The position numbers and the translations under genes were made by a program. From the IMG/VR virus record IMGVR_UViG_3300032323_001975, positions 1 through 60,727 of that record: a DNA stretch of 60,727 bases; one strand, given 5' to 3'. Under the pieces are notes generated by a model. It made no database searches. It was given only the letters and a program-made list of their open reading frames with translations, and was not told the DNA's origin. Of the stretch, positions 2,264 through 24,544 are shown one piece after another. This stretch comes from a virus. Every line of letters starts with the position of its first letter. The first letter of the stretch is position 1.

Positions 2264-2853
2264 CAAACGAGACATATGATTGGTGGTTAAAAATGTCAGA
2301 GCTGGAATTCTATGCCTGGTATGATAATATTTTTACTAACGAAGAACTAGACTTTATAGAAAATATTGTAAGCGATCCAGATTTATTCACAGCTAAAATA
2401 AACACCAATAGTAACACAGATTTATCAGTTAGAAACAGTAATATACAATTTATATCTTCGAATGATCCAAATAATAAATGGATTTTTGAAAGACTAACTG
2501 GCTTAATTAATAGTGCCAACGAAAGATATTTTAATTTTGATTTAAATCGAATTGAAACTTTACAATATACAGTTTATAATGAAGGTCAATTTTATAAAGA
2601 TCATATTGATTTAGGCTATATTAATCCAAATAAAGCTGTAAGAAAACTAAGTTTTACATTGCAACTAACTGACCCAAGTGAATACGAAGGCGGTGAATTA
2701 TTGATAAAATGTGGATCAGAACCACAAGTAGGAAAAAAAGCAAGAGGTAGTATTACCTTCTTTCCCTCGTATATATTGCATGAAGTTACTAAAGTTACTA
2801 AAGGAACACGTAAAAGTATTGTTGGATGGGTAACAGGTCCAAGCTGGAGATGA
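2260..2853 (+). CDS. Fe(II)/2-oxoglutarate-dependent oxygenase (prolyl-4-hydroxylase-like)
   Basis: A 197-residue cupin-fold dioxygenase expected to hydroxylate a protein or small-molecule side chain using O2 and 2-oxoglutarate. The iron ligands are visible as H115-x-D117 (DHIDLGY) and H174 (YILHEVTKV), with R184 positioned to bind the 2-oxoglutarate carboxylate (GTRKSIVGWV). The LSFTLQLTD and EGGELLI strands are typical of the PKHD/P4H group common in marine T4-like phages. Base composition turns more AT-rich than in the epimerase before it. The start overlaps the epimerase stop. The substrate is unknown; a virion protein or the product of the neighbouring aminotransferase are both possible. 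Confidence 0.88.
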   Translation: MTNETYDWWLKMSELEFYAWYDNIFTNEELDFIENIVSDPDLFTAKINTNSNTDLSVRNSNIQFISSNDPNNKWIFERLTGLINSANERYFNFDLNRIETLQYTVYNEGQFYKDHIDLGYINPNKAVRKLSFTLQLTDPSEYEGGELLIKCGSEPQVGKKARGSITFFPSYILHEVTKVTKGTRKSIVGWVTGPSWR

Positions 2854-9077: not shown

Positions 9078-9490
9078 TGTGCAATTATTTGTTCATAAAT
9101 TGTTCGTGCCCATCGTCCTGCATCTTGTTCAGTCACTCTGATATTGTAATAATCAGGCGCAACAAATACTTGATTGGTATCTTCAAATCTACCTTCAGTC
9201 ACGGTATCTACCCAAACAATAAAATGCGGATCGTAGATTCCTCGCATTTCTGGTAAAGGACAAACAAAGTCTGCTATAACGTATTTTGTCCCTGCACGGT
9301 CGGCTAACTGTCTCATTCTACGACTTTGTCGTAATCTGCCGTCGGGACTAAAATCCCAATCGTTATATTTTTTTCTTACCTCATCAGCATTAAGCCAGAT
9401 TACATCAGGATTTAAATAGTTCATTAAATTACGAGCAATCGTAGTTTTACCTGCACCTGGTAAACCCATAATTAAAATACGTTTGGTCAT
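9074..9490 (-). CDS. APS-kinase-like P-loop kinase
   Basis: A 138-residue P-loop protein with Walker A GLPGAGKTT (residues 9-17). After it come features seen in adenylylsulfate kinases (CysC): LNADEVRKKYNDWDFSPDGR and RQSRRMRQLAD, then ADFVCPLPEMR. If it is a true APS kinase it would phosphorylate adenylylsulfate to PAPS, the donor for the sulfotransferase at 20837-21415 in the same cluster. It is shorter than cellular CysC (about 200), with the C-terminal part compressed. It overlaps both neighbours by ATGA. Other small-molecule kinases of the same fold are possible, so the substrate is an inference. Confidence 0.72.
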   Translation of the reverse strand: MTKRILIMGLPGAGKTTIARNLMNYLNPDVIWLNADEVRKKYNDWDFSPDGRLRQSRRMRQLADRAGTKYVIADFVCPLPEMRGIYDPHFIVWVDTVTEGRFEDTNQVFVAPDYYNIRVTEQDAGRWARTIYEQIIAQ

Positions 9491-10962
9491 GAAAAAACTT
9501 TTACTCCATACATCTGCTCAAATCTATCTGCGTCTACACGATCATTGACCATCGGCTCTCCTCGAATATTTAAGCTAGTATTAAGTAACATTGGACAATC
9601 AGTTATTAAAAACCATTTCTCCAATAGCTCTCTTATTCCTGATCCATCTCGCGGAACCGTTTGAACTCTGCTGGTATCATCAGCATGGCATATAGCAGGG
9701 TAACGGTCAGGATACCTGCAACGAGCGACTGACTGCATATAACGACTAGTACTCCACCCAGGACTGAAATCAAAATACTGATCAGCCATTTCTTCAAGTA
9801 TGACAGGGGCAAAAGGTCTAAATTTTTGTCTGCGTTTAATTTCATTTACACGATCCTTAATATGAGGTCCTCTAGGGTCAGCAAGTAAACTTCGATTTCC
9901 TAATGCACGTGGCCCGAACTCAGCACGGCCGTTAGCCACCCCAACAATACCATCATTAAGTAAACTATCAAGTAGTCTATTCGTTGGGTACGCTCCGCTA
10001 ATTTCATGCCCAAGATAAGCGTTAACCCAGTTCAGACGACGACCATAAACGAGTGCTGCGGCACCAAGACTACTGCCGGCATCGCCGGGATTAGGCATAA
10101 TCCAAATGTTATCAAAGTATTCACCGAGGTTCCTATTTGCCAAACAATTTAAGGCTACTCCCCCCATATAAACAAGATTATTACTCCATTTAAAATCTCT
10201 TGCTCTACGCATTACATTATATATTAGTTTTTCAACAGTCTTTTGGGTAGCAGCAGCGATATCTGCTTTATGAACATTTTCGAATAACAAATTTTCAGTG
10301 CCTATATGCAAATTATGTTTAAATGTTGCTTCCCATTCATTATCAATTAAAGAATCTTGTAAGGATGCCGTATACCCTGTTTTACCATAAGCACTCATTC
10401 CCATTAAGATATATTCATCCTCGTTGGGTTTCAGTCCTACTTGTTCAGTCATTGCCGAGTAAAACAATCCAATGCTATGAGGATATTTTTGTGACCATAA
10501 TTTTTTATAATATGCATAGCCCTGGCTATCATACTTAGCACCAAAAATACTAATAGTATCCCACTCGCCAATTGCGTCAATCACTACAACTGTAGCATGA
10601 TTATACAAACTTGTTTGGAATCCTGCTGCCGCATGACTTAAATGATGATCAAAAGAATGAATAGAACAATTATATTTCTTTTTTAATTCTTGTGCTACAC
10701 ATTGAGTCGCAGTTAATCTATCCCATTGTATTCCTTCGCCAGAATACATTCTGCGTAGTTGTTTTTTCCAGGGTTTCTCATAGTAAGCTAAAGCATTGAT
10801 ACTGTATTGTTCTAAATCCTTAAATAGATCAGGACTAATATGAGCATCGTTTTTTAATTTACTATAACGCTCACTATGTGCAGCAAACAATATATCACCT
10901 TGTCTATTCACCACACTTACAGCAGCATCATGAAATCCCGCACTTATTCCTAATATGTTCAT
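9487..10962 (-). CDS. NodU/CmcH-family carbamoyltransferase
   Basis: A 491-residue enzyme expected to transfer a carbamoyl group from carbamoyl phosphate, through carbamoyl-AMP, to a hydroxyl group, usually on a sugar or secondary metabolite. The N-terminal domain shows MNILGISAGFHDAA, DHHLSHAAAGF (D105, H106, H107, H110) and ILMGMSAYGK. The C-terminal domain shows GRAEFGPRALGNRSLL and PFAPVI. It is somewhat shorter than NodU (about 570). It overlaps the upstream SGNH gene by 35 bases; the start is fixed by the conserved first residues. The acceptor is unknown. Its place among glycosyltransferase, sulfotransferase and SGNH genes suggests carbamoylation of a glycan or of a radical-SAM product. 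Confidence 0.92.
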   Translation of the reverse strand: MNILGISAGFHDAAVSVVNRQGDILFAAHSERYSKLKNDAHISPDLFKDLEQYSINALAYYEKPWKKQLRRMYSGEGIQWDRLTATQCVAQELKKKYNCSIHSFDHHLSHAAAGFQTSLYNHATVVVIDAIGEWDTISIFGAKYDSQGYAYYKKLWSQKYPHSIGLFYSAMTEQVGLKPNEDEYILMGMSAYGKTGYTASLQDSLIDNEWEATFKHNLHIGTENLLFENVHKADIAAATQKTVEKLIYNVMRRARDFKWSNNLVYMGGVALNCLANRNLGEYFDNIWIMPNPGDAGSSLGAAALVYGRRLNWVNAYLGHEISGAYPTNRLLDSLLNDGIVGVANGRAEFGPRALGNRSLLADPRGPHIKDRVNEIKRRQKFRPFAPVILEEMADQYFDFSPGWSTSRYMQSVARCRYPDRYPAICHADDTSRVQTVPRDGSGIRELLEKWFLITDCPMLLNTSLNIRGEPMVNDRVDADRFEQMYGVKVFS

Positions 10963-11575
10963 AAATTTTTTCGGCTATAATTTCATGTCCTTGCTCGAGC
11001 GGATGTCCATTTGGTCCATGTGGCGTCCCGTATGTCCATTTTGCTACACTAGTAAACATATTATCAACGAACATTGAATGATCAATTGCACTGATTAATC
11101 TCTCAAATTGTTTGTAATAATGAGTATGACTCAGCTGAGATCCACAAGCAACAAACATAACACAAGGTATTTTATGCAATTTACATAAACTTTGAATTAA
11201 AATAATTTGTCTAAGCCAATCTGCATAATAATATTTTGGAGTATCATATGCTGTCATGTATTTAATTAAATTAATTCTATGTGTTGGATCTTGTAGTTTG
11301 AATGCCTTATAATTTCTCCCGGCCCAAATATCATATATTCCAATGTCATCTGCAAATTCTTGCCTGTTACAATCTGACCACCCTATAATGATCAATTCGC
11401 TTTTATTATTCACAGCATCTATCGCTCGTTTGACCATCCGCTTGTTACCACTGGCCGGTTTTCCTAAATTTGTAATTTGCTTGCCTATTTTCTTAGACAG
11501 AACAGAAGGCCAGGCTTGCTCTTGGCTAGATAATTCATCGCCATATGTAAAACTATCACCAATTGCATAAATCAT
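10928..11575 (-). CDS. SGNH-hydrolase-like protein
   Basis: A 215-residue protein of the SGNH/GDSL esterase fold. The nucleophile block is AIGDSFTYGDE (S8), followed by a glycine block LGKPASGNKR, a strand IIIGWSDCNRQE, and near the C-terminus GHPLEQGHEIIAEKI, where the Asp-x-x-His site is replaced by a conserved HPLEQGH shared with the gene at 11645-12193. Members act as esterases or acetyl-hydrolases on carbohydrates and lipids, or as acetyltransferases; which applies here is unknown. There is no signal peptide, so it acts inside the cell or in the virion. It is translationally coupled to the 33-codon gene before it. Confidence 0.72.
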   Translation of the reverse strand: MIYAIGDSFTYGDELSSQEQAWPSVLSKKIGKQITNLGKPASGNKRMVKRAIDAVNNKSELIIIGWSDCNRQEFADDIGIYDIWAGRNYKAFKLQDPTHRINLIKYMTAYDTPKYYYADWLRQIILIQSLCKLHKIPCVMFVACGSQLSHTHYYKQFERLISAIDHSMFVDNMFTSVAKWTYGTPHGPNGHPLEQGHEIIAEKIYEHIRNKCGIS

Positions 11576-11673
11576 TTGTATATAAAAGGGTCTCTTTTAC
11601 GTAGTTCACGTAATTTACGTCTGTATTTTATTTCTAGTCTGATTCTAGACCAAAGATTTTTTAACCAATTCAT
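11572..11673 (-). CDS. 33-residue basic small protein
   Basis: A short frame starts with ATG inside the end of the upstream SGNH gene (29 bases of overlap) and stops with TGA overlapping the ATG of the next SGNH gene (ATGA). It fills what would otherwise be the only gap of this size in the cluster. The product begins MNWLKNLWSRIRLEI and ends RKRDPFIYK, a strongly basic helix with W and R residues followed by a DPFIY tail. Tails of this type occur, to my recollection, in small hypothetical proteins of T4-like marine phages. The function is unknown; the fit at both ends is the main support. Confidence 0.6.
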   Translation of the reverse strand: MNWLKNLWSRIRLEIKYRRKLRELRKRDPFIYK

Positions 11674-12193
11674 TGAATCGTTCTTTCATTAAATTTGCTG
11701 CATCTTGATGTGCTTGTTCAAGTGGATGATTTTCTTTTCCACAGTCGTACTTATTCTCTACAGCCCATTGATAAAAACCTCTTGGGCTTTCTGTTTGGTC
11801 CGGGCCCAGACCCGGTGGAAACATAAACCAATTTGTGTAATCTAACTTTCTTGTAATTACACAATTATCAGCACAAGTAAAGATATAAGGTATACTATAA
11901 TATTGTAGGTGATCTTGTAAATTCTTAATGTGAAAATCACTATCTAAAGTATTATCTCTGCTAGGCCAAGTCCAACACACCATAACTAGGTCGGGACTGG
12001 ACCAAACTAGCATTTCTCTAACTCTATACGCTATTTCTCTATTACCTAATCCAGGATAGGCTGCACACAAGTAATTATCTGCCAACAGCGCCGGAAAGGT
12101 TCTACGACTAAATCCGTCAGGTCCACCGTTAGGACTGTCGGCCAATTCGCTCCCCCATATAAAACTATCACCCCCGGCTAGAACTGTAGTCAT
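11645..12193 (-). CDS. SGNH-hydrolase-like protein (second copy)
   Basis: A 182-residue relative of the protein encoded at 10928-11575. The nucleophile block is LAGGDSFIWGSEL (S10), then YPGLGNREIAYRV, LVMVCWTWPSRDN and the shared C-terminal ENHPLEQAHQDAANLM. The pair differs mainly in the middle. Catalytic Ser, Gly and Asn positions are visible, while the usual Asp-x-x-His is replaced as in the other copy, so both may share an altered triad or be non-catalytic. Its start overlaps the preceding unknown gene by 26 bases. Two adjacent copies after the radical SAM array suggest acyl or acetyl addition or removal in the same pathway. Confidence 0.7.
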   Translation of the reverse strand: MTTVLAGGDSFIWGSELADSPNGGPDGFSRRTFPALLADNYLCAAYPGLGNREIAYRVREMLVWSSPDLVMVCWTWPSRDNTLDSDFHIKNLQDHLQYYSIPYIFTCADNCVITRKLDYTNWFMFPPGLGPDQTESPRGFYQWAVENKYDCGKENHPLEQAHQDAANLMKERFNELVKKSLV

Positions 12194-13262
12194 ATCCAGG
12201 TTTCATCATATCTATTTGCATCTGTTTGTAATTGCTATCCGACCAACTGTAATCAAATGTACTGCTCACTCCATCTACTTCAATTTTATAGATATCTAAA
12301 TGACTGCTAAGTATGCTCCATATGTCCTGATAATCTGTAGTTCCAAAACTACCTTGCAAATCTATCTGTCCAATCGGAAGATATCCTAGACTTAATCTAA
12401 TATCACTTGGATCTTTATTGTTTTTTATCAGCCATTCTCTAAACAAAATCTGTTCTTGATTATGCCACGGATGTTCTCCAGGGTAAACAACATCATTTCC
12501 CCATTCTACATCAAATTCACCACTATAATATTTTAGTTCTGTAACAGCCTCACACACTGTTTCTGTCAACACAGGAGCACCTTCATCTCGGTATACTTCA
12601 TATAATGTTTTTCCAATTTGTGTCCAGTGCATATATACCCCACCAAGAACACGGTTATACCCGTTTGTTAAAAACAATTGTCTATGATCATCTTTTAAAT
12701 CATAACGCTTGGCATTAATAAATGTTGTAATCTGACTTGGTCTAATCCAATAGGGCAATGTTCTGGCTTTTCTTTGACTTAATATCAAATTTTCTAATTC
12801 ATGGCAAATATTATTTAATTGCCTTATTGCGTATTTGGTTTCATAATTGGCCCGACGATAATAACTACTTAAATTCCCTACAGTGCCTTGTAATCTTTCA
12901 AAATGATTATGTAGAAGATTAAATATTTCGTGATTTGGGCCAAAATCATTATCTATTAATGTACTTGCCGGATATGACTCAGCAATGCAATAATCTCCAT
13001 GGAAAAAATTATTAATAATAGTTATATGTATTTCTAATTCTTTGCATAGATATTCTATAGTTCTTGCAGTTTTAGGAAATCCCATAAAACAAAAATTTTT
13101 TTCAAGTAGATTGTCATTACGCAATAACTCTTTTAGAGCAACGATCCAATCTCGTGCTAACGGATTTTCATGAGGAACTATAGTGTAGTCAATTTGATCA
13201 CTATAGTTTAACGGATTGCGTAATACTACTTTAACTGATGGAAGTCCACCACTCATATACAT
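12168..13262 (-). CDS. Unknown protein next to the radical SAM array
   Basis: A 364-residue soluble protein that I do not recognise. It follows the last radical SAM gene with a 32-base overlap (ATG at 13262; an ATG at 13256 is an alternative). It has no cysteine cluster, P-loop or membrane segment. Notable stretches are GGVYMHWTQIGKTLYEVY, a helical segment ELENLILSQRKAR, and a C-terminal LSLGYLPIGQIDLQGSFG followed by FDYSWSD. Residue use is normal for a globular protein. Its position makes it a candidate partner, substrate carrier or follow-on enzyme for the radical SAM proteins. That role is inferred only from synteny. Confidence 0.6.
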   Translation of the reverse strand: MYMSGGLPSVKVVLRNPLNYSDQIDYTIVPHENPLARDWIVALKELLRNDNLLEKNFCFMGFPKTARTIEYLCKELEIHITIINNFFHGDYCIAESYPASTLIDNDFGPNHEIFNLLHNHFERLQGTVGNLSSYYRRANYETKYAIRQLNNICHELENLILSQRKARTLPYWIRPSQITTFINAKRYDLKDDHRQLFLTNGYNRVLGGVYMHWTQIGKTLYEVYRDEGAPVLTETVCEAVTELKYYSGEFDVEWGNDVVYPGEHPWHNQEQILFREWLIKNNKDPSDIRLSLGYLPIGQIDLQGSFGTTDYQDIWSILSSHLDIYKIEVDGVSSTFDYSWSDSNYKQMQIDMMKPGYDYSSSRG

Positions 13263-14526
13263 CGGCTCTCTTTGATAATATTTCGTCCATAGTGATAGAC
13301 TGTGTACGAATAGATTCTAATTTTAACACACGAGCCTTACCCTTTGCAATACCTTGTTGATATTGTTCTTCGCCATATTGTTCTTGAAAGGTAGGGCGTG
13401 TCTTAAGCTGAACTAGTATATCCTTCATTGGTCCGGCTACTCCGGCGTTAATGATTTCATCTACCCAAGGATCTAATATCGTTCTAGGTAGGGCCAAAGG
13501 TGACATAACTATGTCCGGCGAAAAACTAAAGACAACCTTTGCCAGGATGTCAACGCCTAACTCGTCGGCTAACCGCTGCATATTTTTGACTTCAAACATA
13601 CCCGGGAGGGTAAGTGTGAAATCCAATCTCATTTGCCTCCGGTGCGTTGAGATTCTAATTCCTTTCTTAAAATTGTCAATCCATGTTTCATAATCAAGGC
13701 CTGTTCGGATATATTCTCCAATCTCTCCTGTACCATCGATACTGGCACAAATTTGCCAATCACGCAAATAATTGAGTATATCTTTATAAAGATTACAACC
13801 TCTATAATCAATGCGGCTAAGATTAGTATTGTATCTAGCATAAACACGTGGTCCATCTCCTAGTTCTATTATTCTTCGCATATACCGCCAATGCTGTTCG
13901 TACATTAACGGTTCACCTCCGACCCAATATATCTCTTCTACACGGTGGTTCTCTACTGCGTCTGCGAACTCTGCTTCAATTTGAGTTGTCTGGAACTGTT
14001 CAATATGCTTTTTGATCTCAGGTTTCATCCAATTGTTTTTTGGGTCCAACCAATTGACCATATCGTGTTGTCTTTGTTCACTTTCCCACGAACTGGACAA
14101 CATATCACCGCATGTGCGGCATTTAAAGTTACAGAGATTACTAAATCTATAATCCCAGGAAACAGGTTTCATAGTTGTATGTCCTGTTTCATCAGTGTTC
14201 TCTAACACCTGTAAATACTTATGTCCAAACAAATTATTAAAATAACTGCGGTAAACATCTGTATTAAGAAGTTTATTGTTACATACTTCACATTCTGATA
14301 ATGTTTCTCCGGCTAACATACGTCTACGTACACTACGCATATGTTCGCCATTCCAATGTTCTTCAAGTTTAATTGGTTTATACTGACCAGAGCCAGAAGC
14401 AGTGTCTATATACTGTTTAAAATTTTGTGAGGGTTCACGGCTTGCACAACAAAGACGTCTTTCTGTTTGTGGACTTAAATAGGTATGTGTCCATGGGGCC
14501 ATACATAATGTTTCTGGTCTATTCAT
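13231..14526 (-). CDS. Radical SAM protein, twitch type (array member 5, type A)
   Basis: A 431-residue radical SAM enzyme, last of five in transcription order. The SAM-binding [4Fe-4S] motif is C132, C136, C139 (NLCNFKCRTCGD), and YWVGGEPLM a little further on is the GGE motif. In front of the SAM domain is an N-terminal cysteine region, LCMAPWTHTYL, a CC pair and SECEVC, of the kind found in twitch-domain radical SAM proteins; it may hold a second Fe-S cluster. I start it at 14526 (MNRPETLCMAPW), matching the start of the neighbour at 14519-15733; an ATG at 14538 would add four residues. The product is unknown. Confidence 0.85.
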   Translation of the reverse strand: MNRPETLCMAPWTHTYLSPQTERRLCCASREPSQNFKQYIDTASGSGQYKPIKLEEHWNGEHMRSVRRRMLAGETLSECEVCNNKLLNTDVYRSYFNNLFGHKYLQVLENTDETGHTTMKPVSWDYRFSNLCNFKCRTCGDMLSSSWESEQRQHDMVNWLDPKNNWMKPEIKKHIEQFQTTQIEAEFADAVENHRVEEIYWVGGEPLMYEQHWRYMRRIIELGDGPRVYARYNTNLSRIDYRGCNLYKDILNYLRDWQICASIDGTGEIGEYIRTGLDYETWIDNFKKGIRISTHRRQMRLDFTLTLPGMFEVKNMQRLADELGVDILAKVVFSFSPDIVMSPLALPRTILDPWVDEIINAGVAGPMKDILVQLKTRPTFQEQYGEEQYQQGIAKGKARVLKLESIRTQSITMDEILSKRADVYEWWTSIS

Positions 14527-15733
14527 AACCCATTGCAATAGCTATTTCTGGATGAGTATCTTTAAAATTTTGCCTGCGATACACGTCGGCCTTTTTCATT
14601 TTTCTAAGAAATTCTTCACCGTTACTACCTGGACCATTTTCTATAAATTGAATTATATTGTTTATTTCTTGCTGATATTTTGTTGATTTCCAAACAGTAT
14701 TTTGCAATTTGTTAATAACCATTTTTTTTGCGTTTAGAGTCATATATTGTATACTCATATGATCTGGACTATGTAACATGTTAAAATAAACATCTCCAAA
14801 TTTTTTTGTATTTGCCCAATCTAAAAGTTCATCTAGATAGTATACGTTTTGTATATTAACTGTAAAACAGAGTTGAGTAGTGATATTAGTCTGTGACTTT
14901 TTCATCATATGTACAGTATCAATAATCTCGTTGGCCTTTGTCCAATTGGCACCGTATCTTTCGTATTCAAATCTTTTTCCAACATTATCTACGCTAAATG
15001 CAATATCAACTCGACCAAAATCTTTCCACAAAGCAATTAAATCTTCAGGCCATTGTGTTGCATTAGTATTGTAATGTATATCGATGTGTTTACTATCACC
15101 TGTTTTAACAGCAAACTCGAGTAAATCAATGTGCTCTTGAATAAGAAAAGGTTCGCCGCCAGTAAATTCAAGGTACTTTATATTAGGTAATAATTGTCTT
15201 AGATTTTCCCAAAAAAGAGTATTTGGATTTTGTGGCCAGGCACCTTGTTTTAGCCATTGATAAGCAATATGCTGTTTTTTGTCATATCCAATTGGCATAT
15301 ACTTTAATTCTTCGTCTGCCCATTTACTACTAGACCACGACCCGCATATTCTACATTTTAAATTGCAAATATTACCTAACTTAAGATCAAGAAACCATAA
15401 CTGATTTGGATTATCGTTTTGCCAATCAACCAATGATACTAGTTCTTTTAATCTTACTTTGCTATTAATTCTTTTACTAGTTCTGCCTGCGGCCTCTTCG
15501 TCCCAACATAATTTGCAAGTGGCAGGTTTTTCTCCGGCAAGAAATTGTCTGCGAAGATTTTGCATATACTGGCTGTGATAGATAGTTTCTAAGGTATCTT
15601 TGTTTAAATCAAATTTAATTCCGTCGTTTTGTGTAATTTCTTCTCTAGCTAAACAACAAGGTCTAGCTGTACCTATCGGAGTAGTTTCTATGCTAATCCA
15701 CGGCAGCATACAAATTGTTTTAGGTAGATTCAT
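14519..15733 (-). CDS. Radical SAM protein, twitch type (array member 4, type A)
   Basis: A 404-residue radical SAM protein. The cluster motif is C123, C127, C130 (NICNLKCRICGS), and YLEFTGGEPFLI supplies the GGE. The N-terminal cysteine region begins at the start codon (MNLPKTICMLPWISIE), followed by a CC pair and ATCKLC. It is the closest in layout to the gene at 13231-14526, and their overlapping ends show translational coupling. The sequence is more AT-rich than its downstream neighbour. No peptide-precursor gene is evident next to it. The reaction is unknown; phage-borne twitch proteins of this layout have no assigned substrate that I can name. Confidence 0.85.
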   Translation of the reverse strand: MNLPKTICMLPWISIETTPIGTARPCCLAREEITQNDGIKFDLNKDTLETIYHSQYMQNLRRQFLAGEKPATCKLCWDEEAAGRTSKRINSKVRLKELVSLVDWQNDNPNQLWFLDLKLGNICNLKCRICGSWSSSKWADEELKYMPIGYDKKQHIAYQWLKQGAWPQNPNTLFWENLRQLLPNIKYLEFTGGEPFLIQEHIDLLEFAVKTGDSKHIDIHYNTNATQWPEDLIALWKDFGRVDIAFSVDNVGKRFEYERYGANWTKANEIIDTVHMMKKSQTNITTQLCFTVNIQNVYYLDELLDWANTKKFGDVYFNMLHSPDHMSIQYMTLNAKKMVINKLQNTVWKSTKYQQEINNIIQFIENGPGSNGEEFLRKMKKADVYRRQNFKDTHPEIAIAMGYE

Positions 15734-17180
15734 TTAATATCTTCAATTCAGAAAAAGTATCCCAAAAATTTTCATTTCTTATACTATCTAGTTTTCGAAT
15801 TTCTTCCTTAAATTTTGGAAATAAATGACTATTGTCAGTTGCTTTGACAAAATTCAAAACACTTTTAAATCCGTTAGTAGCTCGTTTTAAACTATCCAAT
15901 TTCTCTATCCATTCTATATGTTGTTCGTATGCCGGAATAATAAAATCTTTTTTAAACCATTCGGGAAAAATATCTGCTCTATACCATTCGGGACTTAAAC
16001 AAAGATTAATATTTACATCGCCTGGTTTAATTAAACCAAGTTCTACCCATTCTTTGTGAAAATCTAAAACATGTAAAATATTCATTGCACTTACTGTTGG
16101 ATTAATATGAAAATCAACATGCGGTACTTCTTTTTTCATTAGTTTTCTATTTTCAATAACTTGCGTCCATTTTGTTCCTTTACGCATAAGTTCTCCACGT
16201 GCACCACTGGCATCTAAGCTGGCACCAAGACTTACACTTTTGAATTGTTTCCAATAATCCAAAACATGCTTATCTTTATATCTTAATTCACTGAAGTTTG
16301 AGTTATATAAAATTCTTACATCAGTCTTGCTGTGTTCAATCAACTTCTCTAACATAAAATAATGTTCTTTCATTATTAGAGGTTCGCCGCCGGCAAAATA
16401 AACTTGATCAAGGTATGGTATGTGCGGAAGCATTTGAGCTAACATTGCATCCTCGTCGCCTGCAGTATACTCGATTCGAGCCATTTCTCTTCCGAGCACG
16501 TCTGGTTTACGGTTATAAAGCTTGACATGATCGTTATACCAGTTACTACTGAAAATAGGTCCACAACTACGACAACTAAAATTACAAAGGTTAGAAAATC
16601 TTACATCCCAATACCTTATTTTAAATTCTGGATGAGTGCCATCCTCTTTAGTTAATTTGACTTCTTCAATATGATGTCCGTAATTTCTATTTGCATCGTT
16701 TCTCATACTGAAAAATCCATTTCGTTCATGCTCATAACATTTACTACATTCTTTACTTTCTGTATTGTTTAACATGTTCAAACGTATTTGTTTATATGGA
16801 CCTTGATTCCAGACTTGCTGCATTGTATGCTTTCTAAGGTCTCCCACTGGATGCCAATAATCGCTTAGACAACATGGATAAGCACGACCATCCGGAAAAG
16901 CATGCATATGAGTCCACGGCAACATACAAAAAGACTTACTTTTTGTGAGCATGTATAATTCTTTTTCCGTAAAAATTTTATCTTTTGCATACATTGGCAT
17001 TAACGAAAGATAATCGTAATCTGTTTTATAAATATGTTCAGATTTGTTTTCAAGTTCAGTGATTTCTTTTTTTATTTCTAAATTAGTGATTTCCGTATTT
17101 TGAATATAGTCTTCATAACTAGGCCAGTCTTCACCGGCAAATTTATTATAAAAATCTTTTTGTAACTTATGTTTACTCAT
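15720..17180 (-). CDS. Radical SAM protein, twitch type (array member 3, type A)
   Basis: A 486-residue member with an extra N-terminal stretch of roughly 85 residues, lysine- and glutamate-rich (EIKKEITELENK), before the cysteine region SFCMLPWTHMHAFPDG, CC and KECSKC. The SAM motif is C199, C203, C206 (NLCNFSCRSCGP) and the GGE is in YFAGGEPLIMKEH. I choose ATG 17180 because it overlaps the upstream stop (ATGA); an in-frame ATG at 17195 would add five residues. The N-terminal extension is absent from the two type A paralogues and could be a docking segment. Confidence 0.85.
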   Translation of the reverse strand: MSKHKLQKDFYNKFAGEDWPSYEDYIQNTEITNLEIKKEITELENKSEHIYKTDYDYLSLMPMYAKDKIFTEKELYMLTKSKSFCMLPWTHMHAFPDGRAYPCCLSDYWHPVGDLRKHTMQQVWNQGPYKQIRLNMLNNTESKECSKCYEHERNGFFSMRNDANRNYGHHIEEVKLTKEDGTHPEFKIRYWDVRFSNLCNFSCRSCGPIFSSNWYNDHVKLYNRKPDVLGREMARIEYTAGDEDAMLAQMLPHIPYLDQVYFAGGEPLIMKEHYFMLEKLIEHSKTDVRILYNSNFSELRYKDKHVLDYWKQFKSVSLGASLDASGARGELMRKGTKWTQVIENRKLMKKEVPHVDFHINPTVSAMNILHVLDFHKEWVELGLIKPGDVNINLCLSPEWYRADIFPEWFKKDFIIPAYEQHIEWIEKLDSLKRATNGFKSVLNFVKATDNSHLFPKFKEEIRKLDSIRNENFWDTFSELKILNEST

Positions 17181-18532
17181 AATGTCTGATACCAATCTGC
17201 TATAACAGGAAATGTATTTACAAAGTTTTTATTGCGGCGCTGATCATATTGTGTATAGAATTGCTTAAAATCGTTTCTTAATTTAGGTAAATCAAATGCT
17301 TCGCTGTGTGGTGTTTTAACCACATCTAAATAATCTACAAGTCTCTGTAGCTGATTCCATTCATATTCATGTAAGTAATTACTGCCTCTATGGTTAGTCA
17401 TAAACTGATCAAGTTGATCTCTATACTTGGTACGTAGCTCATCAGGTAATACTAATGCAGATTGAAAACTAGGAAAGCGTAGTATGTTTAACGAAAAATT
17501 AACTGCATCCTTGCCATAACAAATTTTCCAATTGATTACACATTCTAAAAAGTCTACTAGACTGTCCAAACACAATGCATTTATGGTACACATAATATGC
17601 AATGCTCTTAATTTATTATCAATTTGATTATCAAGTATGAGCTCTACAGTATTAGCCCAATCGTCCCAAACCAATCCATCTCTAATATACTCTGCATGAC
17701 TGCCGACACTTTCATTACTAGTGTATAGGTCAATGGGTGAGTCCACACTGTTAAATAGACGATCGAGATCAACTTGAGCTCCTAGATTAGAATTAATTGC
17801 CAATCTTGTTTTGCTTCGGCCTCGATTATTTTTAAACCAATCGAGTAATTGCCAGGTATATCCTGACATCAATGGTTCACCTCCGGTAATTCTCAATTCA
17901 TTTAAGGTTCTGTGGAGATCTGATTCCCACCATTGGAAGAAGGCCGTGACGTATGGGTTATTTTCACCAAATTTAAAAAGCTGCGAACTGTCATGGCTAT
18001 GAGTAAAATGATTCCTACCGTCAGACACCAGATCCACGTAGGGTCCATTGTTATTAATGTCTTTGACCCAAGTACTACTGAACGCAGGATTGCAATAAGA
18101 GCAAGCAAACTGACAAGTACGGTCAAAACTGATTTCAAGAGTGCGAAGATTGACATCTTCTGTTGGGGATGTTCTAAATGCATTATCAAGATCCTCATCT
18201 GAATAAATTACTGTTTTGTAAACACGATCGCTAATATTGTCGCGCCCGATGTCTTCTATCTTCCAGCAGTATTCACAACCTGCAGGTCTTTCACCTGCTT
18301 GCATTTGACGACGCTCCTCTTTCTTTTTAACAGTATTATGCAATGCACGAGGATTTGCTTGCACTTCTTCCACACCAACTCGATGAGGCAACGGATGATG
18401 ACAACTCGTGGTCATGCCACTGCCTAACCATATAGTAGCGTTATACCATTTTGCTCCGCAGAATGATTCGGACTTAATGTCGATTACTCTACGCTTGTAT
18501 TCTAAATCTGTTTCGTTATTAATTTTGGGCAT
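17177..18532 (-). CDS. Radical SAM protein, twitch type (array member 2, type B)
   Basis: A 451-residue radical SAM protein with C140, C144, C147 (RTCQFACSYCNPAF) and LRITGGEPLMSG. Its N-terminal region differs from the type A genes: FCGAKWYNATIWL, then SCHHPLPHR, RALHNTVKKKEERRQM and GCEYCWKIEDIG. It shares this layout with the gene at 18519-19904, so the two form a separate subtype. The start overlaps the upstream stop by 14 bases. The second TSCHHP and CEYCW cysteines probably bind an auxiliary cluster, as in the related twitch or SPASM folds; this is inferred from spacing. Confidence 0.85.
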   Translation of the reverse strand: MPKINNETDLEYKRRVIDIKSESFCGAKWYNATIWLGSGMTTSCHHPLPHRVGVEEVQANPRALHNTVKKKEERRQMQAGERPAGCEYCWKIEDIGRDNISDRVYKTVIYSDEDLDNAFRTSPTEDVNLRTLEISFDRTCQFACSYCNPAFSSTWVKDINNNGPYVDLVSDGRNHFTHSHDSSQLFKFGENNPYVTAFFQWWESDLHRTLNELRITGGEPLMSGYTWQLLDWFKNNRGRSKTRLAINSNLGAQVDLDRLFNSVDSPIDLYTSNESVGSHAEYIRDGLVWDDWANTVELILDNQIDNKLRALHIMCTINALCLDSLVDFLECVINWKICYGKDAVNFSLNILRFPSFQSALVLPDELRTKYRDQLDQFMTNHRGSNYLHEYEWNQLQRLVDYLDVVKTPHSEAFDLPKLRNDFKQFYTQYDQRRNKNFVNTFPVIADWYQTL

Positions 18533-19904
18533 GATACCTACATTCTTCCCAGAATTCTCGCATTTCTGGAAATGTCTTTAAAAAGTCTGTGTCTCTACGT
18601 TTGTCATGTTCATTAAAAAATCTATAAAAGTCGCCTCGTTGTATTTTAACATACTCATTATCTAATTTACTACCTTCTTGCATCCAATCTACAACTCGTT
18701 GCATTCTTTGCACTTCGTAATCTTTGAACCCTTGAAATGGGCGTTTGGGTGTTTCTAAATTTGCCTGCATCCAATCTATCACATCTTGTAATCGTTTAAC
18801 ATAAACCGGCGGAAGTATCTGTAAACTTTGCCACGTGGGTTGTCTTAATATAGGAGTGTCAAACCAAACTCTTTGATATGTAGAACTGTGTAATCTTCGT
18901 AACGAAAGAATAGTTTCCAATTGCCTTTTTAACCCTAGCACACTGAGATTGTTCATAGTAATAATAAACGTCAAACTATTACGATAGGGAATGTGTTTTA
19001 AGAAATAGTCAACTCTCGCTAATACCCTTTTAAATTCCATTCCGTGTCTAATATATTCGGCATGCTCGGGGATTCCTGAATCTAAACTCACATACTGCAT
19101 GAAATGTTCTATATTAGTGTTACATAACTGACTAACATAACCAAAATATTGTTCCCATAACTTTTCTTCTATACTAAAATTACTTGTCACATCAATATGC
19201 AAGTCAGGTTTAGGAAATGCTAATATATAATCAAATACACGATAGGTATTACGATCCATTAGTGGCTCGCCGCCGGTCATTCTAAAGTGTTTAAGCTTGG
19301 GGTATAAACTAGGCCACCATTCCCAAAAAGCGTCAACGTAAGGATTCTGCTCACGTGCTGGGATAATTTTTCTGTCCCCAGAAAAATAACTAGGGTCATT
19401 ATGAAGATTACTTGTGGGATAAGCTCCGTACCTAGCAACTTCATCGGCCCAACTGCTACTAAACTGTGGACTGCAATAACTACACTTAAGGTTGCAAGCG
19501 TGATTAAAATTGACTTCCACATAACTTGGAATTGTATCTTCTTGTCCTGTAAAATTTCTAATTTCTTCATAATGTTCTGCCGCCCAGGGCTCTCCACTTC
19601 TATAATGTCTGTCGCTTAGATTGCCTAAGTCCTCTTGAGTCCAGCAATAACTGCACTCGCGTGGACGCTCGTTGTTTAGCATAAGTACACGCTGTTGCTT
19701 CTTATGCTCTGTATTGTGTAACGCACCTGGATCTAGTTTAATTGCATCAGCATCAATCTTATGTAACGGAGGATGATAGCAACTATTGTTAAGTCCAGTT
19801 GGCAAGTGCAGGCTTACTTGTTTCCACTTAGCCAAGCAGAGTGCAGGACCTAACTTGTCCTTCATTTCATATGCGGCTGACATAAAATTACTTTTATTAT
19901 CCAT
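18519..19904 (-). CDS. Radical SAM protein, twitch type (array member 1, type B)
   Basis: A 461-residue radical SAM protein, first of the array to be transcribed. The SAM motif is C137, C141, C144 (HACNLKCSYCSPQF) and the GGE is in FRMTGGEPLMDR. The N-terminal region (SCYHPPLHK, GALHNTEHKKQQRVLM, ECSYCWTQEDLG) matches the neighbour at 17177-18532, pointing to a tandem duplication. The start ATG overlaps the end of the GT10-like gene by eight bases. The substrate is unknown. Its position directly after glycosyltransferase and sulfotransferase genes would fit a sugar or peptide substrate equally well. Confidence 0.85.
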   Translation of the reverse strand: MDNKSNFMSAAYEMKDKLGPALCLAKWKQVSLHLPTGLNNSCYHPPLHKIDADAIKLDPGALHNTEHKKQQRVLMLNNERPRECSYCWTQEDLGNLSDRHYRSGEPWAAEHYEEIRNFTGQEDTIPSYVEVNFNHACNLKCSYCSPQFSSSWADEVARYGAYPTSNLHNDPSYFSGDRKIIPAREQNPYVDAFWEWWPSLYPKLKHFRMTGGEPLMDRNTYRVFDYILAFPKPDLHIDVTSNFSIEEKLWEQYFGYVSQLCNTNIEHFMQYVSLDSGIPEHAEYIRHGMEFKRVLARVDYFLKHIPYRNSLTFIITMNNLSVLGLKRQLETILSLRRLHSSTYQRVWFDTPILRQPTWQSLQILPPVYVKRLQDVIDWMQANLETPKRPFQGFKDYEVQRMQRVVDWMQEGSKLDNEYVKIQRGDFYRFFNEHDKRRDTDFLKTFPEMREFWEECRYHAQN

Positions 19905-20856
19905 TTAACTTAACACTATTATCATTGATATTTTGCAATAAAGTTCGATTGTAATCTAGAACCGACGACATATCATCTAGCACAGACTCCATCTTGTTTA
20001 TATCCCACTTGTATATGTCTTCTAAGATTTTTCTAATCTCAACTATTCGTTCAAATCCGCTTTTATCGTCGTAGCTTTCGTTCCACCACTTATCAAATGT
20101 TTTAAACCCAATTCGTTTCATATTACCAAGATACCCGCATGGGCCCATTACAATAAATGGCGTCCTTGCTATAATTGGACGAAAGGTTTTTTCAGTTGGG
20201 AAAAATGTTAATCCAGTTACGTATGTTTCTGAAACCAAATCGAGAAAAATATTGTGATATGTTTTAATGATATTATAATGAGTTGGGGGACCAATTGTGT
20301 AATTTAAAAACCCCTCATCTAGTGTTAACGGGCAGGATGGCAAAAATTCTACAACTGATGATAATTCTTCTTGTGCAAACATGTTAATACCAGTTAATTC
20401 GCTATCAAGTTGGTGTCTCTCAGATGTTGAATCATAGTGTAGCGTCATTAAAGTTTTATCTTTATAGTTATGATATAGCCATGCAGAATTAACTAATCTA
20501 TGCCAATTTGGTTTCCCATGAAAGCAACCAACAGTATATTGTAAAGTCTTGGCTTCAAGTGGTATAGAAAATGCAAACTTTGATTTAGATATCCAATGAT
20601 TTCCTTTGATTACAATATTGTAATCTGAATTATATTCTTCGACGTTATTAGTGTATATGGTTACTACTTTCTTATCAATGCCCCATTGTTCACATACAAA
20701 ATCTAATACTTGGTAAAAATCTGTAGATTTCAAACACAAACCTTCGCCATTGGTACTAATATGGATACTGCCGGTTTGTTGATATTCTTTAATAATGTCA
20801 GATACCTTGTTTGGCAAATTAAAAATAAGACGGTCTTTATTTGGAAGATAAATCAT
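19897..20856 (-). CDS. GT10-like glycosyltransferase family protein
   Basis: A 319-residue member of the four-protein family in this window. The core reads PTEKTFRPIIARTPFIVMG (E222/K223) followed by IGFKTFDKWWNESYD. The strand, EK and PFIVMG pattern resembles the donor site of GT10 fucosyltransferases. The N-terminal half is unlike the other copies, as expected if acceptors differ. It has no membrane segment. It overlaps the sulfotransferase upstream by 20 bases and the first radical SAM gene downstream by eight, so it is in the same operon. Glycosyl transfer is inferred; the sugar is unknown. Confidence 0.68.
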   Translation of the reverse strand: MIYLPNKDRLIFNLPNKVSDIIKEYQQTGSIHISTNGEGLCLKSTDFYQVLDFVCEQWGIDKKVVTIYTNNVEEYNSDYNIVIKGNHWISKSKFAFSIPLEAKTLQYTVGCFHGKPNWHRLVNSAWLYHNYKDKTLMTLHYDSTSERHQLDSELTGINMFAQEELSSVVEFLPSCPLTLDEGFLNYTIGPPTHYNIIKTYHNIFLDLVSETYVTGLTFFPTEKTFRPIIARTPFIVMGPCGYLGNMKRIGFKTFDKWWNESYDDKSGFERIVEIRKILEDIYKWDINKMESVLDDMSSVLDYNRTLLQNINDNSVKLNG

Positions 20857-21415
20857 TTTTTGTAATTAATTCCATAAGTTCTGAATAATTGCTCGGTTTG
20901 CTATATAACACATATCTTGAGTCAATGATATCTAAGTCCTCGTAATAAACTGTACAATCTACATCATTCCATTTTGTTAATAGCTGCTGATTCATATCAT
21001 GTATATACATCGATATGTTGTTTAGTTCCGTTTCATTGATTGGGATAGAATACTCTGTTTGTTGTTGAAGTTTATGGTAATGCCATTTTTGTGTCATATG
21101 ACAGATATAAAAACTAGCAATCTGTTTACTAACATCTCGTCGTATTAATCGAATTTTGTATGCACTATTTAGGACGGAAGCTATTGTATTGTTTGTCTTA
21201 GTTGTAACGTGGTCGGGCATAATTTTAGCCACATAACGTAAACCAGAATTATAGTGATGTAGAAAATTATTGTATCTATCAGGTATAGACCGATGAAAGG
21301 CTTCATCAAAATTTTTAATGCCATTGCTTGATGCAATATAATCACACAGTGCTGTTGATCCAGTTCTATACGATGACAACACCGCTACAGATTTTTCCAA
21401 AGGGATATTGATCAT
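20837..21415 (-). CDS. Sulfotransferase-like protein
   Basis: A 192-residue protein with the two PAPS-binding hallmarks of sulfotransferases: a P-loop-like 5'-phosphosulfate segment VLSSYRTGSTALCDYI near residues 12-27, and a 3'-phosphate segment KIRLIRRDVSKQIASFY. It would transfer sulfate from PAPS to a hydroxyl or amine, most likely on a sugar given the neighbours. It is shorter than most carbohydrate sulfotransferases (about 250-300), with the C-terminal part reduced. The start overlaps the preceding stop (ATGA). The APS-kinase-like gene at 9074-9490 could supply its donor. The acceptor is unknown. Confidence 0.75.
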   Translation of the reverse strand: MINIPLEKSVAVLSSYRTGSTALCDYIASSNGIKNFDEAFHRSIPDRYNNFLHHYNSGLRYVAKIMPDHVTTKTNNTIASVLNSAYKIRLIRRDVSKQIASFYICHMTQKWHYHKLQQQTEYSIPINETELNNISMYIHDMNQQLLTKWNDVDCTVYYEDLDIIDSRYVLYSKPSNYSELMELITKNDLSSK

Positions 21416-22311
21416 TCTTTTGCCATTACACCTTTGTTTTTAAATTGGCTTTGGTAATGGTGCTTAAAGAATCGGCTTTGTTCAGGCGTGTATGTGACAA
21501 TAGGCAATTCTAGTCTAGTGGTCAATGCACTTTCGATTCTTTCGCAGCTTTCTTTGGGATCGTCTTGGCTAAAACTTGACCATAACTTTTCCAACATATC
21601 AAAGTCCTGTACATAATGATGATCCCAATTTTCAAGCATGATCATGTATGTTCCCAGTCTGGCTCCGTACATGGCCCAATAACCATTTTCAACATCTGCA
21701 CCTACTGAATGCCAAATGCATAAATGATCGTAGTTGCGATTATTAACTTTTTCTTCAAACTCTGCTAGTGTGGGTTTGTGCCCGCGATCTAGACACATCT
21801 TTACCCCTTCACGAAAACCAGCACGCCATGCTTGTTTGGCGCTACCGTTAGGGTGTGTGGTAGAATAGCAGTTATGCATTGCTGTATACTTGGGATCAAA
21901 ACAAAACTCCACGGCAGTTTCTTCATCACCGCGACTTGCTTCGTGTGTACGCATGTTATAAACAAAGTCCCGGGTCCAGCAACTTACACCACCGTTGCCA
22001 TAACGAAGTCCGTTGATTACATTTCTTGCCTTCCATCGAAAAACGTGATCACGATTAGTTTCGTTCAGCGATAACTGTAAATTAAAAAATTCCGAGTCCG
22101 GTATGTTATCACCATCAATAATAACAAAGCGTTCTGTATCGCTTGCTGCTGCGGCGGCTTTGTGTGCTGCGTCAGACCCTTTAATGCCATCTACCCTCTT
22201 TGCCCATGGAACCATGTTTTGAATACGAATCCAAAACTCTTCTTTTTTAGGTTCGTCATAAGTTAGAAAAATACAATCTAAATCTGCTATATCAACTATT
22301 TGTTCTGTCAT
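21412..22311 (-). CDS. GT-A-like glycosyltransferase (DGD motif)
   Basis: A 299-residue protein with a GT-A-type nucleotide-sugar fold inferred from an N-terminal CIFLTYDEPKKEEFW segment, the AKRVDGIKGSDAAHKAA helix, and a metal-binding D66-G-D68 (RFVIIDGDNIPD). Further motifs are RNVINGLRYGNGG and QAWRAGFREGVKM. The same order, without the DGD, appears in the C-terminal part of the 872-residue protein at 4966-7584. No membrane segment is present. It overlaps both neighbours by 20 bases or fewer. Glycosyl transfer is likely; donor and acceptor cannot be read. Confidence 0.68.
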   Translation of the reverse strand: MTEQIVDIADLDCIFLTYDEPKKEEFWIRIQNMVPWAKRVDGIKGSDAAHKAAAAASDTERFVIIDGDNIPDSEFFNLQLSLNETNRDHVFRWKARNVINGLRYGNGGVSCWTRDFVYNMRTHEASRGDEETAVEFCFDPKYTAMHNCYSTTHPNGSAKQAWRAGFREGVKMCLDRGHKPTLAEFEEKVNNRNYDHLCIWHSVGADVENGYWAMYGARLGTYMIMLENWDHHYVQDFDMLEKLWSSFSQDDPKESCERIESALTTRLELPIVTYTPEQSRFFKHHYQSQFKNKGVMAKE

Positions 22312-22666
22312 AAAATTCTATTTCTCTATGTTGTTCATTTTCGTATAAAATAAGGGCCGCATGACCTTTAACTGTTCTATAACCTGTGCTTGATTTTTTT
22401 AGTTTAACTTTGTTTGGTATATGCGGATCAATAATTTTAAGTTCCTTGTTAACTACACGCAGCCAATTTGTGTTATTTTTATGAAATTGATCCGGATGTT
22501 CGATTATAATATAGTTGTCGCCTACCGGAAATCCATTTTCCCATAATCCTATAACAGTTCCGTCATCATTGTAATACAACCTGTATTCTTTTATCAGTTT
22601 AGGCCTATTTTTATCATATTCCTCAACTAATCGAAAAGCTTTTATTAATTCATCATGAGGATTCAT
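22292..22666 (-). CDS. Small hypothetical protein
   Basis: A 124-residue protein starting MNPHDELIKAFRLVEEYD. It has a charged helix, then a beta-rich part with YNDDGTVIGLWENGFPVGDN and IIEHPDQFHKN. No catalytic motif, cysteine pair or membrane segment is seen. It overlaps its neighbours by 14 and 20 bases. Proteins of this pattern appear, to my recollection, in T4-like cyanophages without a function. Position between glycosyltransferase-like genes is the only hint. Confidence 0.6.
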   Translation of the reverse strand: MNPHDELIKAFRLVEEYDKNRPKLIKEYRLYYNDDGTVIGLWENGFPVGDNYIIIEHPDQFHKNNTNWLRVVNKELKIIDPHIPNKVKLKKSSTGYRTVKGHAALILYENEQHREIEFYDRTNS

Positions 22667-23486
22667 AATATAATATCATTTTATCTATATCAAAATTTTT
22701 ATCGTAAAGATGCAAGGGATGATATTGATTTATATTGTTTATTCTAAACATTCCTTGATCGAATTCTGTTAAAAAAACATCATTAATGCAATAGCTTTCA
22801 TTGTAATTATTAATAGCAGGTTTCAAATGTGTAAAATTTATAAAATCTGCTGCCGGTAAAGTAGTTAGTTCTCTTCCAAGTATATGCGAACAAATAGAAT
22901 AAACAAGGTCTGTAGTAGGATACTCTTCGTCACAATATTTAAAATTTTCTTTAATTATTTCCCAATTATCAAAAATTATTCTAGCAGTGTTAAAAAATTT
23001 AAGTGCATTTGACGAATATCTGAAATACATCAATCCATTAAAGACATCAGGTAAATTATTATCGTCAAAAATTTTTCTATATTTTCGATTATTACTTATT
23101 TCTTGCTTATAATCTCTACAACCCAAACTTAAAACTATATCTTTAAATCTAAGCACATTCCACCAATGATCAATATTTCTTGTTAAAATTATATCAGATT
23201 CTAATTTAATGGTTTCTTTAAACGGTGAACACCAAAATGCCTGTGGTTCTAATGCAAAGACATTTTTTTCAGACGATTCTTTTAATTCAATTATGTAATC
23301 AAATATTTCTTTGTGTTGAGTTGAAATATCTTTTTTTGTATTTGCGTCAACAATAACGGCAACTTTATTGATCTTTTGTGTTTTTTTGATACTAAGTGCC
23401 TGTAAGTAAGCTAGTCTTAAATAGTCAACTGTGTTACTGTTAACCGCTAATGTTACAAATCCCTGTTGTTCTTTATGCCAACTCAT
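22653..23486 (-). CDS. GT8-like glycosyltransferase (putative)
   Basis: A 277-residue protein with a GT-A look. The N-terminus GFVTLAVNSNTVDYLRLAY resembles the first strand and helix of glycogenin-type enzymes. The usual metal-binding DxD is represented by E96-S-D98 (IKLESDIILTRNIDHWW), and VFNGLMYFRYSS follows where GT8 enzymes have their FNSGV segment. The altered DxD leaves activity uncertain. It overlaps the next GT8-like gene upstream by 14 bases, and the two may be ancient duplicates. Base composition is very AT-rich. The acceptor is unknown. Confidence 0.55.
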   Translation of the reverse strand: MSWHKEQQGFVTLAVNSNTVDYLRLAYLQALSIKKTQKINKVAVIVDANTKKDISTQHKEIFDYIIELKESSEKNVFALEPQAFWCSPFKETIKLESDIILTRNIDHWWNVLRFKDIVLSLGCRDYKQEISNNRKYRKIFDDNNLPDVFNGLMYFRYSSNALKFFNTARIIFDNWEIIKENFKYCDEEYPTTDLVYSICSHILGRELTTLPAADFINFTHLKPAINNYNESYCINDVFLTEFDQGMFRINNINQYHPLHLYDKNFDIDKMILYYESS

Positions 23487-24267
23487 TTAAAATCTTTGTA
23501 TAAAAAAGTTCAAAGTTTTCGCTTTGTAGATATGATTTACTCATTACATGTAAATTTGTCCTTGGCAAGACATAACTTTTTTCTGTGTCCTTTACAATAA
23601 TTTTATTATCCTTTAAATCCATACTTTTGATAGGTTGGTTTATCGACAACATGCTACCGGGAATAGAATTGTTATCAATTGAATACCCATTTAATATAAT
23701 ATCAGCTATAGCAAACGCATAATCGTTTCTGTAAATACGTTCGGTAATATTAAATAACAATCGATAATATTGATAATTTTTCTGTATTCTTTCAATTAAA
23801 TTAAAATACAGTTTTGCTTTTTTTGTTTTTCTAAAAGCAAAAACAGTTGCCCATACGTATGGGTGACTGTAAACACCCATGGTATTTGGCCATTCGGTAG
23901 TCAAAGCATGACTTTTTCTTTGTAAAATATAATCCCACGATGTATTAAAAATTTTTAGTATATCATCATTTAAAATTAAATAGTCTGCATCAATAACCAG
24001 TGTTTCATCATAAGGCGAAAAATTGTAAACACTATGCCTTCCAAAATTCCTCCATTCAACAAATTTATCTAAATCTATATCAAACCTACTGTTATAGAAT
24101 GTTTTATCATCTAAATTAGTAACTAGTGTAAATGGTAAATCTAAAACTTTTGAAGCAATAGTTAACGTTTTATTAGCAATATTTTCATAATTAGTGCTTG
24201 AGGTGTTTAAAGCAAATGCAACAATACCTCTAGATTTTTCTAATTTTTTTAAGTTCTTCATATTCAT
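23473..24267 (-). CDS. GT8-like glycosyltransferase (putative)
   Basis: A 264-residue protein with a GT-A pattern. After a lysine-rich start comes GIVAFALNTSSTNYENIA, then a long strand and helix region and a clear metal-binding D93-A-D95 (DETLVIDADYLIL). Later residues SWDYILQRKSHA and WATVFAFRKTKKA fit the acceptor side of GT8-like folds. The DxD is intact, unlike the downstream neighbour at 22653-23486. The start lies 38 bases inside the preceding gene. The sugar is unknown. Confidence 0.6.
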   Translation of the reverse strand: MNMKNLKKLEKSRGIVAFALNTSSTNYENIANKTLTIASKVLDLPFTLVTNLDDKTFYNSRFDIDLDKFVEWRNFGRHSVYNFSPYDETLVIDADYLILNDDILKIFNTSWDYILQRKSHALTTEWPNTMGVYSHPYVWATVFAFRKTKKAKLYFNLIERIQKNYQYYRLLFNITERIYRNDYAFAIADIILNGYSIDNNSIPGSMLSINQPIKSMDLKDNKIIVKDTEKSYVLPRTNLHVMSKSYLQSENFELFYTKILNELA

Positions 24268-24544
24268 TATGCCAGCGATTCATTACTAATTGATAGTGCT
24301 GCTGTGCTGTCACTAAAAAAATTTGTTTATCAATTTTAATAGGATTTTCGTAAACATCTTCAAGATATATTTCATCGGTTGGCCAAGTTTTTACAAATGC
24401 TAGTATATCTGGAGTGATCTTGAATAATCCCCCATTGTGTGTCATGTGCAGATCAGTTTGTATTTTTTCTTTAAGGATTTTTTTGTTAATTTGAAAATCC
24501 GTGGATAAACGAATTTCTTCAACTAGTTCATCTAATGTGTTCAT
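24230..24544 (-). CDS. Small hypothetical protein at the head of the modification operon
   Basis: A 104-residue protein beginning MNTLDELVEEIRLST and ending in a charged helix EYEELKKIRKI. It is the first gene after the sigma70-type promoter at 24567-24595, and its ATG follows the -10 hexamer by about 22 bases, giving a very short leader with no clear ribosome binding site. Similar small proteins are, to my recollection, common in T4-like cyanophages. I cannot assign a function; a regulatory role is possible from its promoter-proximal place but is only a guess. Confidence 0.6.
   Translation of the reverse strand: MNTLDELVEEIRLSTDFQINKKILKEKIQTDLHMTHNGGLFKITPDILAFVKTWPTDEIYLEDVYENPIKIDKQIFLVTAQQHYQLVMNRWHNEYEELKKIRKI

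Follow-up and report, generated by a model that had tools for sequence, protein, structure and literature searches.

What use might a phage have for five radical S-adenosylmethionine (SAM) enzymes encoded one after another? The question is raised by the IMG/VR virus record IMGVR_UViG_3300032323_001975, a stretch of 60,727 nucleotides (nt) analysed here over its whole length (the window), in which five complete, overlapping open reading frames (ORFs) on the minus strand fill positions 13231-19904 and are transcribed in the order E, D, C, B, A. The best explanation of the data is that these five anciently diverged radical SAM (rSAM) enzymes are part of a conserved cassette for glycan building in large T4-like aquatic phages. 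As to their role, we give about an even chance to a cytosolic glycan-tailoring pathway, encoded in the tail and host-recognition region, which would act on a putative sugar substrate and whose product would sit on the virion or alter the host surface.

Five divergent members of one twitch radical SAM family

All five proteins pass the curated cut-off (170 bits) of NF033640, the NCBIfam profile N_Twi_rSAM for twitch domain-containing radical SAM proteins, with scores of 280-392 bits over nearly the full profile length. Matches to the Pfam families Radical_SAM and SPASM are consistent with this in part of the five. The array consists of the following genes (lengths in amino acids, aa).

18519..19904, minus strand: rSAM gene E, first of the array; 461 aa; NF033640 298 bits; phage-only clade, support 0.96
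17177..18532, minus strand: rSAM gene D, sister of E (29% identity); 451 aa; NF033640 280 bits; phage-only clade, support 0.93
15720..17195, minus strand: rSAM gene C; 491 aa, with about 70 additional N-terminal residues; NF033640 392 bits; SPASM (PF13186) above cut-off
14519..15733, minus strand: rSAM gene B; 404 aa; NF033640 354 bits; Radical_SAM and SPASM above the Pfam cut-offs
13231..14538, minus strand: rSAM gene A, last of the array; 435 aa; NF033640 287 bits; model pLDDT 91.9

Neighbouring array genes overlap by 4-20 nt. The true starts of A and C, both listed with TTG codons, are probably internal ATGs at about 14526 and 17180, respectively; with C shortened in this way, the C/D junction would become a 4-nt ATGA overlap with the stop codon of D.

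Seven cysteine columns are invariant in the alignment of the five proteins, comprising the C-x3-C-x2-C triad and exactly four N-terminal cysteines (C12, C31, C83 and C86 in the numbering of A), and the GGE-P motif is likewise invariant. A preliminary description of this DNA had claimed five complete twitch-type rSAM genes in one phage operon, each with CxxxCxxC, GGE and N-terminal cysteines; the profile search and the all-against-all alignment bear this out. The four N-terminal cysteines are predicted to be enough for one twitch-type auxiliary [4Fe-4S] cluster. Among 486 full-length relatives, CxxxCxxC is kept in all 486, GGE in 483 and the N-terminal cysteine pattern in 478.

Pairwise identities among the five are only 18-29%, and the genes are therefore old paralogues; chance is excluded as the source of the array. 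In a phylogenetic tree, D and E each form a phage-only clade without a bacterial member, A occurs as one copy per locus in a clade of weak support (0.37), and bacterial sequences fall among those of B and C. Compared with NF033640 at large, the phage A, D and E proteins stand in their own, mostly phage-only clades, and each of the five clades is old. The median ratio of nonsynonymous to synonymous substitution rates (dN/dS) is 0.05-0.10 for all five genes, indicating strong purifying selection.

Structure prediction, which the preliminary description had proposed as a check, gave a confident model for gene A, and its nearest PDB folds are the rSAM/SPASM enzymes BlsE, SuiB, GDGT-MAS, CteB and viperin. 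These neighbours confirm the enzyme class but not the substrate. The SPASM/twitch enzymes of known structure (BlsE, SuiB, CteB and MoaA) combine an rSAM core with an auxiliary cluster, as in the array, and match gene A with a best E-value of only 2e-4 and a TM of about 0.3. In the known enzymes, however, the cysteines of the auxiliary cluster follow the core, whereas in the array enzymes they precede it. Solved relatives of the array proteins found by sequence were weak viperin fragments only. A viperin-like defence protein was considered and rejected, as the prokaryotic viperin profile NF038283 (cut-off 180 bits) gave 18-27.5 bits in four of the five and no match in D. We know of no member of the NF033640 family, which is defined by sequence only, whose function has been tested.

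A fixed gene block in T4-like aquatic phages

The 60.7-kb fragment also encodes gp25 baseplate, baseplate hub and tail collar proteins, and the array sits just downstream of fibre genes, in a type of region termed "host recognition cluster" in a study on pelagimyophages (PMC7029224). The tail region of the window further contains a 4235-aa ORF (30259-42966). A prohead protease of the Peptidase_S77 family occurs in 18 of 25 long relatives, consistent with T4-like phages.

In contigs selected with gene A, the order u264-u277-u299-E-D-C-B-A-u364-carbamoyltransferase recurs, where partner genes are named by "u" and the length of the protein in amino acids (u104, u264, u277, u299, u320 and u364). 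So as not to select on A, a second scan was made with gene E alone. This gave 54 contigs that extend 9 kb or more downstream. All of them have D, B and A, and 51 have C; the exact order E-D-C-B-A is found in 47, and in 52 the 364-aa partner follows A. Upstream, u104, u264, u277 and u299 were found in every one of the 72 contigs reaching at least 6 kb in that direction, and u320 in 71. The window itself shows the same cassette, with E-D-C-B-A, the GT8 pair upstream and the 364-aa partner downstream. In many relatives, additional rSAM genes and genes of other kinds stand between the array members. A NodU-type carbamoyltransferase often follows the 364-aa partner, and this gene is present in 52 of 81 loci.

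Contrary to what the preliminary description had supposed, five is not an unusual number here. The records carry 3-21 NF033640 matches in a set of 50 related records and 4-19 in 37 more, and at least five copies occur in 83 of the 87 (maximum 21); since these records were picked by similarity, the counts describe this phage group, in which arrays of such size are routine, and not phages at large. Large rSAM gene sets in T4-like phages have, moreover, been reported before: the marine phage genome TARA_ERS488813_N000010 has 12 rSAM genes (PMC5332604, 2017), and host-recognition regions of pelagimyophages hold rSAM gene cassettes (PMC7029224, 2020). Like the phages described here, these are T4-like aquatic phages with multiple rSAM genes in a host-recognition region with glycosyltransferases. 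In phage contigs from the Tasman Sea, rSAM, RmlD and glycosyltransferase genes are reported to be enriched together (PMC7150976). The available portions of PMC5332604 and PMC7029224 contain no description of the five-gene block with its GT8 and carbamoyltransferase partners, its gene order or its function. The array is thus real, conserved, probably important and common in large T4-like aquatic phages and was partly noted in earlier surveys, and the new part is the fixed cassette with its partners. The suggestion of an undescribed phage system accordingly stands for the cassette and its function but not for the multiplicity of rSAM genes.

Among 50,697 deposited phage records, tblastn with C or A matched three, two of which are the Vibrio phages K566 and K567, and gene E found K566/K567 only; no near-identical DNA was found in deposited phages. 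K566 and K567 are cultured phages of 255 kb; in K566, three of the six NF033640 matches lie within 5 kb. Their rSAM proteins are, however, only 23-27% identical to the array proteins, and the glycosyltransferase, 364-aa partner and u299 profiles gave no match in either phage. The phage cassette or parts of it also turned up in contigs of metagenome-assembled genomes of Betaproteobacteria, Pelagibacter, Rickettsiales and Verrucomicrobia (L087-L089, L094, L099, L101), which are probably mis-binned phage contigs.

The array keeps company with glycan genes

The main functional clue, absent from the preliminary description, is the conserved neighbourhood of glycosyltransferase, carbamoyltransferase and sugar-nucleotide genes. 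Around the array, the window encodes the following.

1283..3950, plus strand: sugar-nucleotide-type genes, namely NAD-dependent epimerase, 2OG-Fe(II) oxygenase and DegT aminotransferase (PF01370, PF13640, PF01041)
4966..7584, minus strand: 872-aa repeat protein, C-terminal part related to the 21412 transferase (blastp E-value 2e-10)
9487..10962, minus strand: NodU-type carbamoyltransferase (Pfam Carbam_trans_N and _C)
10928..11575, minus strand: SGNH/GDSL-like protein (Pfam DUF6071 above cut-off)
11645..12193, minus strand: small SGNH-like protein, by reading (GGDSFIWG), without Pfam match; optional in relatives, syntenic in part of the loci
12168..13262, minus strand: 364-aa partner directly after A; downstream of the array in 52/54 E-selected contigs; model pLDDT 87.8
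19897..20856, minus strand: putative glycosyltransferase, by paralogy and a TEK...GFxTF...WDESYD motif read by eye; no Pfam or PDB match
20837..21415, minus strand: sulfotransferase-like protein (Stf0, PF09037, just under cut-off)
21412..22311, minus strand: putative GT-A-like transferase u299 with DGDN motif (invariant D66, D68, N69); 72/72 contigs; no Pfam or PDB match
22653..23486, minus strand: GT8-family, glycogenin-like glycosyltransferase u277; profile match to glycogenin-1, E-value 1e-7; 72/72 contigs
23473..24267, minus strand: second GT8-like protein u264 with DAD motif; matched by the u277 profile, no direct PDB match; 72/72 contigs
24230..24544, minus strand: conserved 104-aa protein u104 without cysteine; 72/72 contigs
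24605..25567, minus strand: Ser/Thr-rich virion-like protein u320; 27% S+T; 71/72 contigs

A UDP-sugar dehydrogenase is likewise present in the window. The putative glycosyltransferase at 19897-20856 has paralogues at 3981-4994, 7583-8680 and 59279-60442, making four copies with the motif TEKxxxPI...GFxTF...WDESYD, and probably represents a glycosyltransferase family missing from Pfam. Members of this family are inserted between the rSAM genes in many relatives. PDB profile searches with this family, the 21412 transferase and the second GT8-like protein returned nothing convincing. The 872-aa protein contains several repeats of a Y..FDF.W.P..W...HvFPSq motif. Homologues of u320 (76 matches) have a median Ser/Thr content of 29%, against 12% for all ORFs, and u320 may serve as the glycan acceptor. 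No convincing transmembrane segment was found in the core cassette proteins.

For the 364-aa partner, neither a PDB fold match at an E-value of 0.001 or below nor a solved relative by profile was found. It has the conserved His/Glu motifs NHFE, CHExE and RDE, may be a metal-dependent enzyme and has relatives in genomes of Bacteriovoracaceae and further deltaproteobacteria.

In divergent phage relatives, other glycan genes take the place of the GT8 genes: one locus (L066) has two GT7 galactosyltransferases directly before E together with a mannose-6-phosphate isomerase/nucleotidyltransferase, and another (L062) has a UDP-glucose dehydrogenase. Bacterial rSAM relatives stand beside carbamoyltransferase, GT1 and Wzt genes in Fluviicola (L102), beside ABC-2 export and DegT genes in Bacteriovoracaceae (L109) and beside a NodU-type gene in Bdellovibrionales (L207). 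L109 also has a nearby relative of the 364-aa partner (E-value 6e-9), which a stricter genome search did not recover.

The Bdellovibrionales genome (G069) holds 37 NF033640 matches. On its contig C275 (L207/L208), an island of more than 10 rSAM genes of several types alternates with PP-loop (SGGLDS) proteins and a B12-type rSAM, beside the NodU-type carbamoyltransferase. Bacteriovoracaceae and Bdellovibrionales islands resemble the phage array in that a genome can hold as many as 37 NF033640 matches, partly in tandem, with one island beside a NodU-type carbamoyltransferase. They differ from it in that B12-binding and other rSAM types as well as PP-loop proteins are interspersed and in lacking a fixed E-D-C-B-A block.

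Weighing the possible substrates

For activity on a sugar substrate, it is the neighbourhood that speaks. We count in its favour the match of a GT8 protein to glycogenin, the carbamoyltransferase, epimerase, DegT and UDP-sugar dehydrogenase genes, the fixed block in the independent E-selected sample, the glycan genes in divergent and bacterial relatives, the low dN/dS, the confident rSAM fold and the lack of convincing transmembrane segments. Several observations weigh against it. The fold neighbours BlsE, SuiB, CteB and GDGT-MAS have substrates as diverse as nucleosides, peptides and lipids, some bacterial relatives stand alone without glycan genes (L098, L116), and several of the "transferases" are named from motifs read by eye that neither Pfam nor PDB matches back up. 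A gene-gain hot spot might also bring such genes together without a shared pathway, although the fixed order speaks against that. That the five genes are unrelated cargo of a hypervariable region, serving a separate function each, would fit the further rSAM and other genes inserted between the array members; we find it hardly credible, as the same five orthologues keep the same order in 47 of 54 independently selected contigs, all 54 of which contain D, B and A.

The main rival, which we consider unlikely, is that the enzymes act directly on protein side chains (through thioether, epimer or C-C crosslink formation), with tail fibres or the Ser/Thr-rich virion protein among the possible targets, much as maturases of ribosomally synthesized and post-translationally modified peptides (RiPPs) do with peptides. 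The peptide maturases SuiB and CteB are indeed among the close fold neighbours of A, virion proteins are adjacent, and a virion-protein target would need no separate precursor gene. Yet no RiPP maturase equivalog scores above cut-off with the five array proteins (matches to DynA, SkfB, PapB and mycofactocin profiles all lie far below), and the 320-aa virion-like protein contains no cysteine and hence no site for thioether chemistry. In line with the remark that no RiPP precursor is evident, no short gene lies within the overlapping array, and the conserved 104- and 124-aa neighbours lack cysteine. The neighbours, moreover, are sugar enzymes. Quite improbable, in our estimate, is that the cassette feeds modified sugars into host O-antigen or capsule synthesis and thereby changes the glycan on the cell surface while infection proceeds, as in superinfection exclusion or receptor masking. 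Bacterial relatives do occur in polysaccharide export loci, and surface alteration by phage glycosyltransferases was proposed in PMC7029224, but membrane-bound transferases, flippases and export genes are absent from the core cassette, the lytic cycle of a T4-like phage leaves little time for surface rebuilding, and the adjacency to virion genes would stay unexplained. Hypermodification of phage DNA bases would recall the phage glycosyltransferases known to hypermodify DNA (a reference cited in PMC12619734), and the window contains a ThyA-family gene and a dCMP deaminase. We regard it as highly unlikely because, of 25 long records with the array, which may be incomplete, 8 have a ThyA-family gene and 17 lack one; furthermore, the ThyA of the window carries the ordinary motif, by reading, and a search run without a positive control found no Tet_JBP match.

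Proposed pathway and its significance

For the glycan-tailoring pathway, we infer a substrate, a set of reactions, an acceptor and a benefit as follows. Each enzyme would cleave SAM at the CxxxCxxC cluster to give a 5'-deoxyadenosyl radical, which may alter a single position of a sugar or nearly related substrate (by epimerisation, dehydration, deoxygenation or formation of a bond), and an electron would pass to the auxiliary cluster. Assembly of the sugar units would fall to the GT8-like and other transferases, and the NodU-type carbamoyltransferase, the aminotransferase and the SGNH proteins would decorate them. The product would most likely be placed on the virion, or else be fed into the host surface glycan, because the cassette proteins look cytosolic and adjoin tail-fibre genes and the Ser/Thr-rich virion-like protein. 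A multi-step or multi-substrate pathway, as originally suggested, is plausible. We hold more tentatively a fuller version, in which the five rSAM enzymes act successively and, with the GT8 transferases and the carbamoyltransferase, furnish a virion adhesin rich in Ser/Thr with a carbamoylated glycan tailored by radical chemistry, a previously unknown kind of virion decoration.

Five non-redundant rSAM enzymes in fixed order and under strong purifying selection point to a real pathway that costs the phage iron, SAM and genome space. The fixed partners (the GT8 pair, the carbamoyltransferase and the 364-aa protein), together with the cultured relative Vibrio phage K566, make the cassette testable. 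If the enzymes do tailor a glycan, they would provide new chemistry for decorating the virion or the host surface in abundant aquatic viruses.

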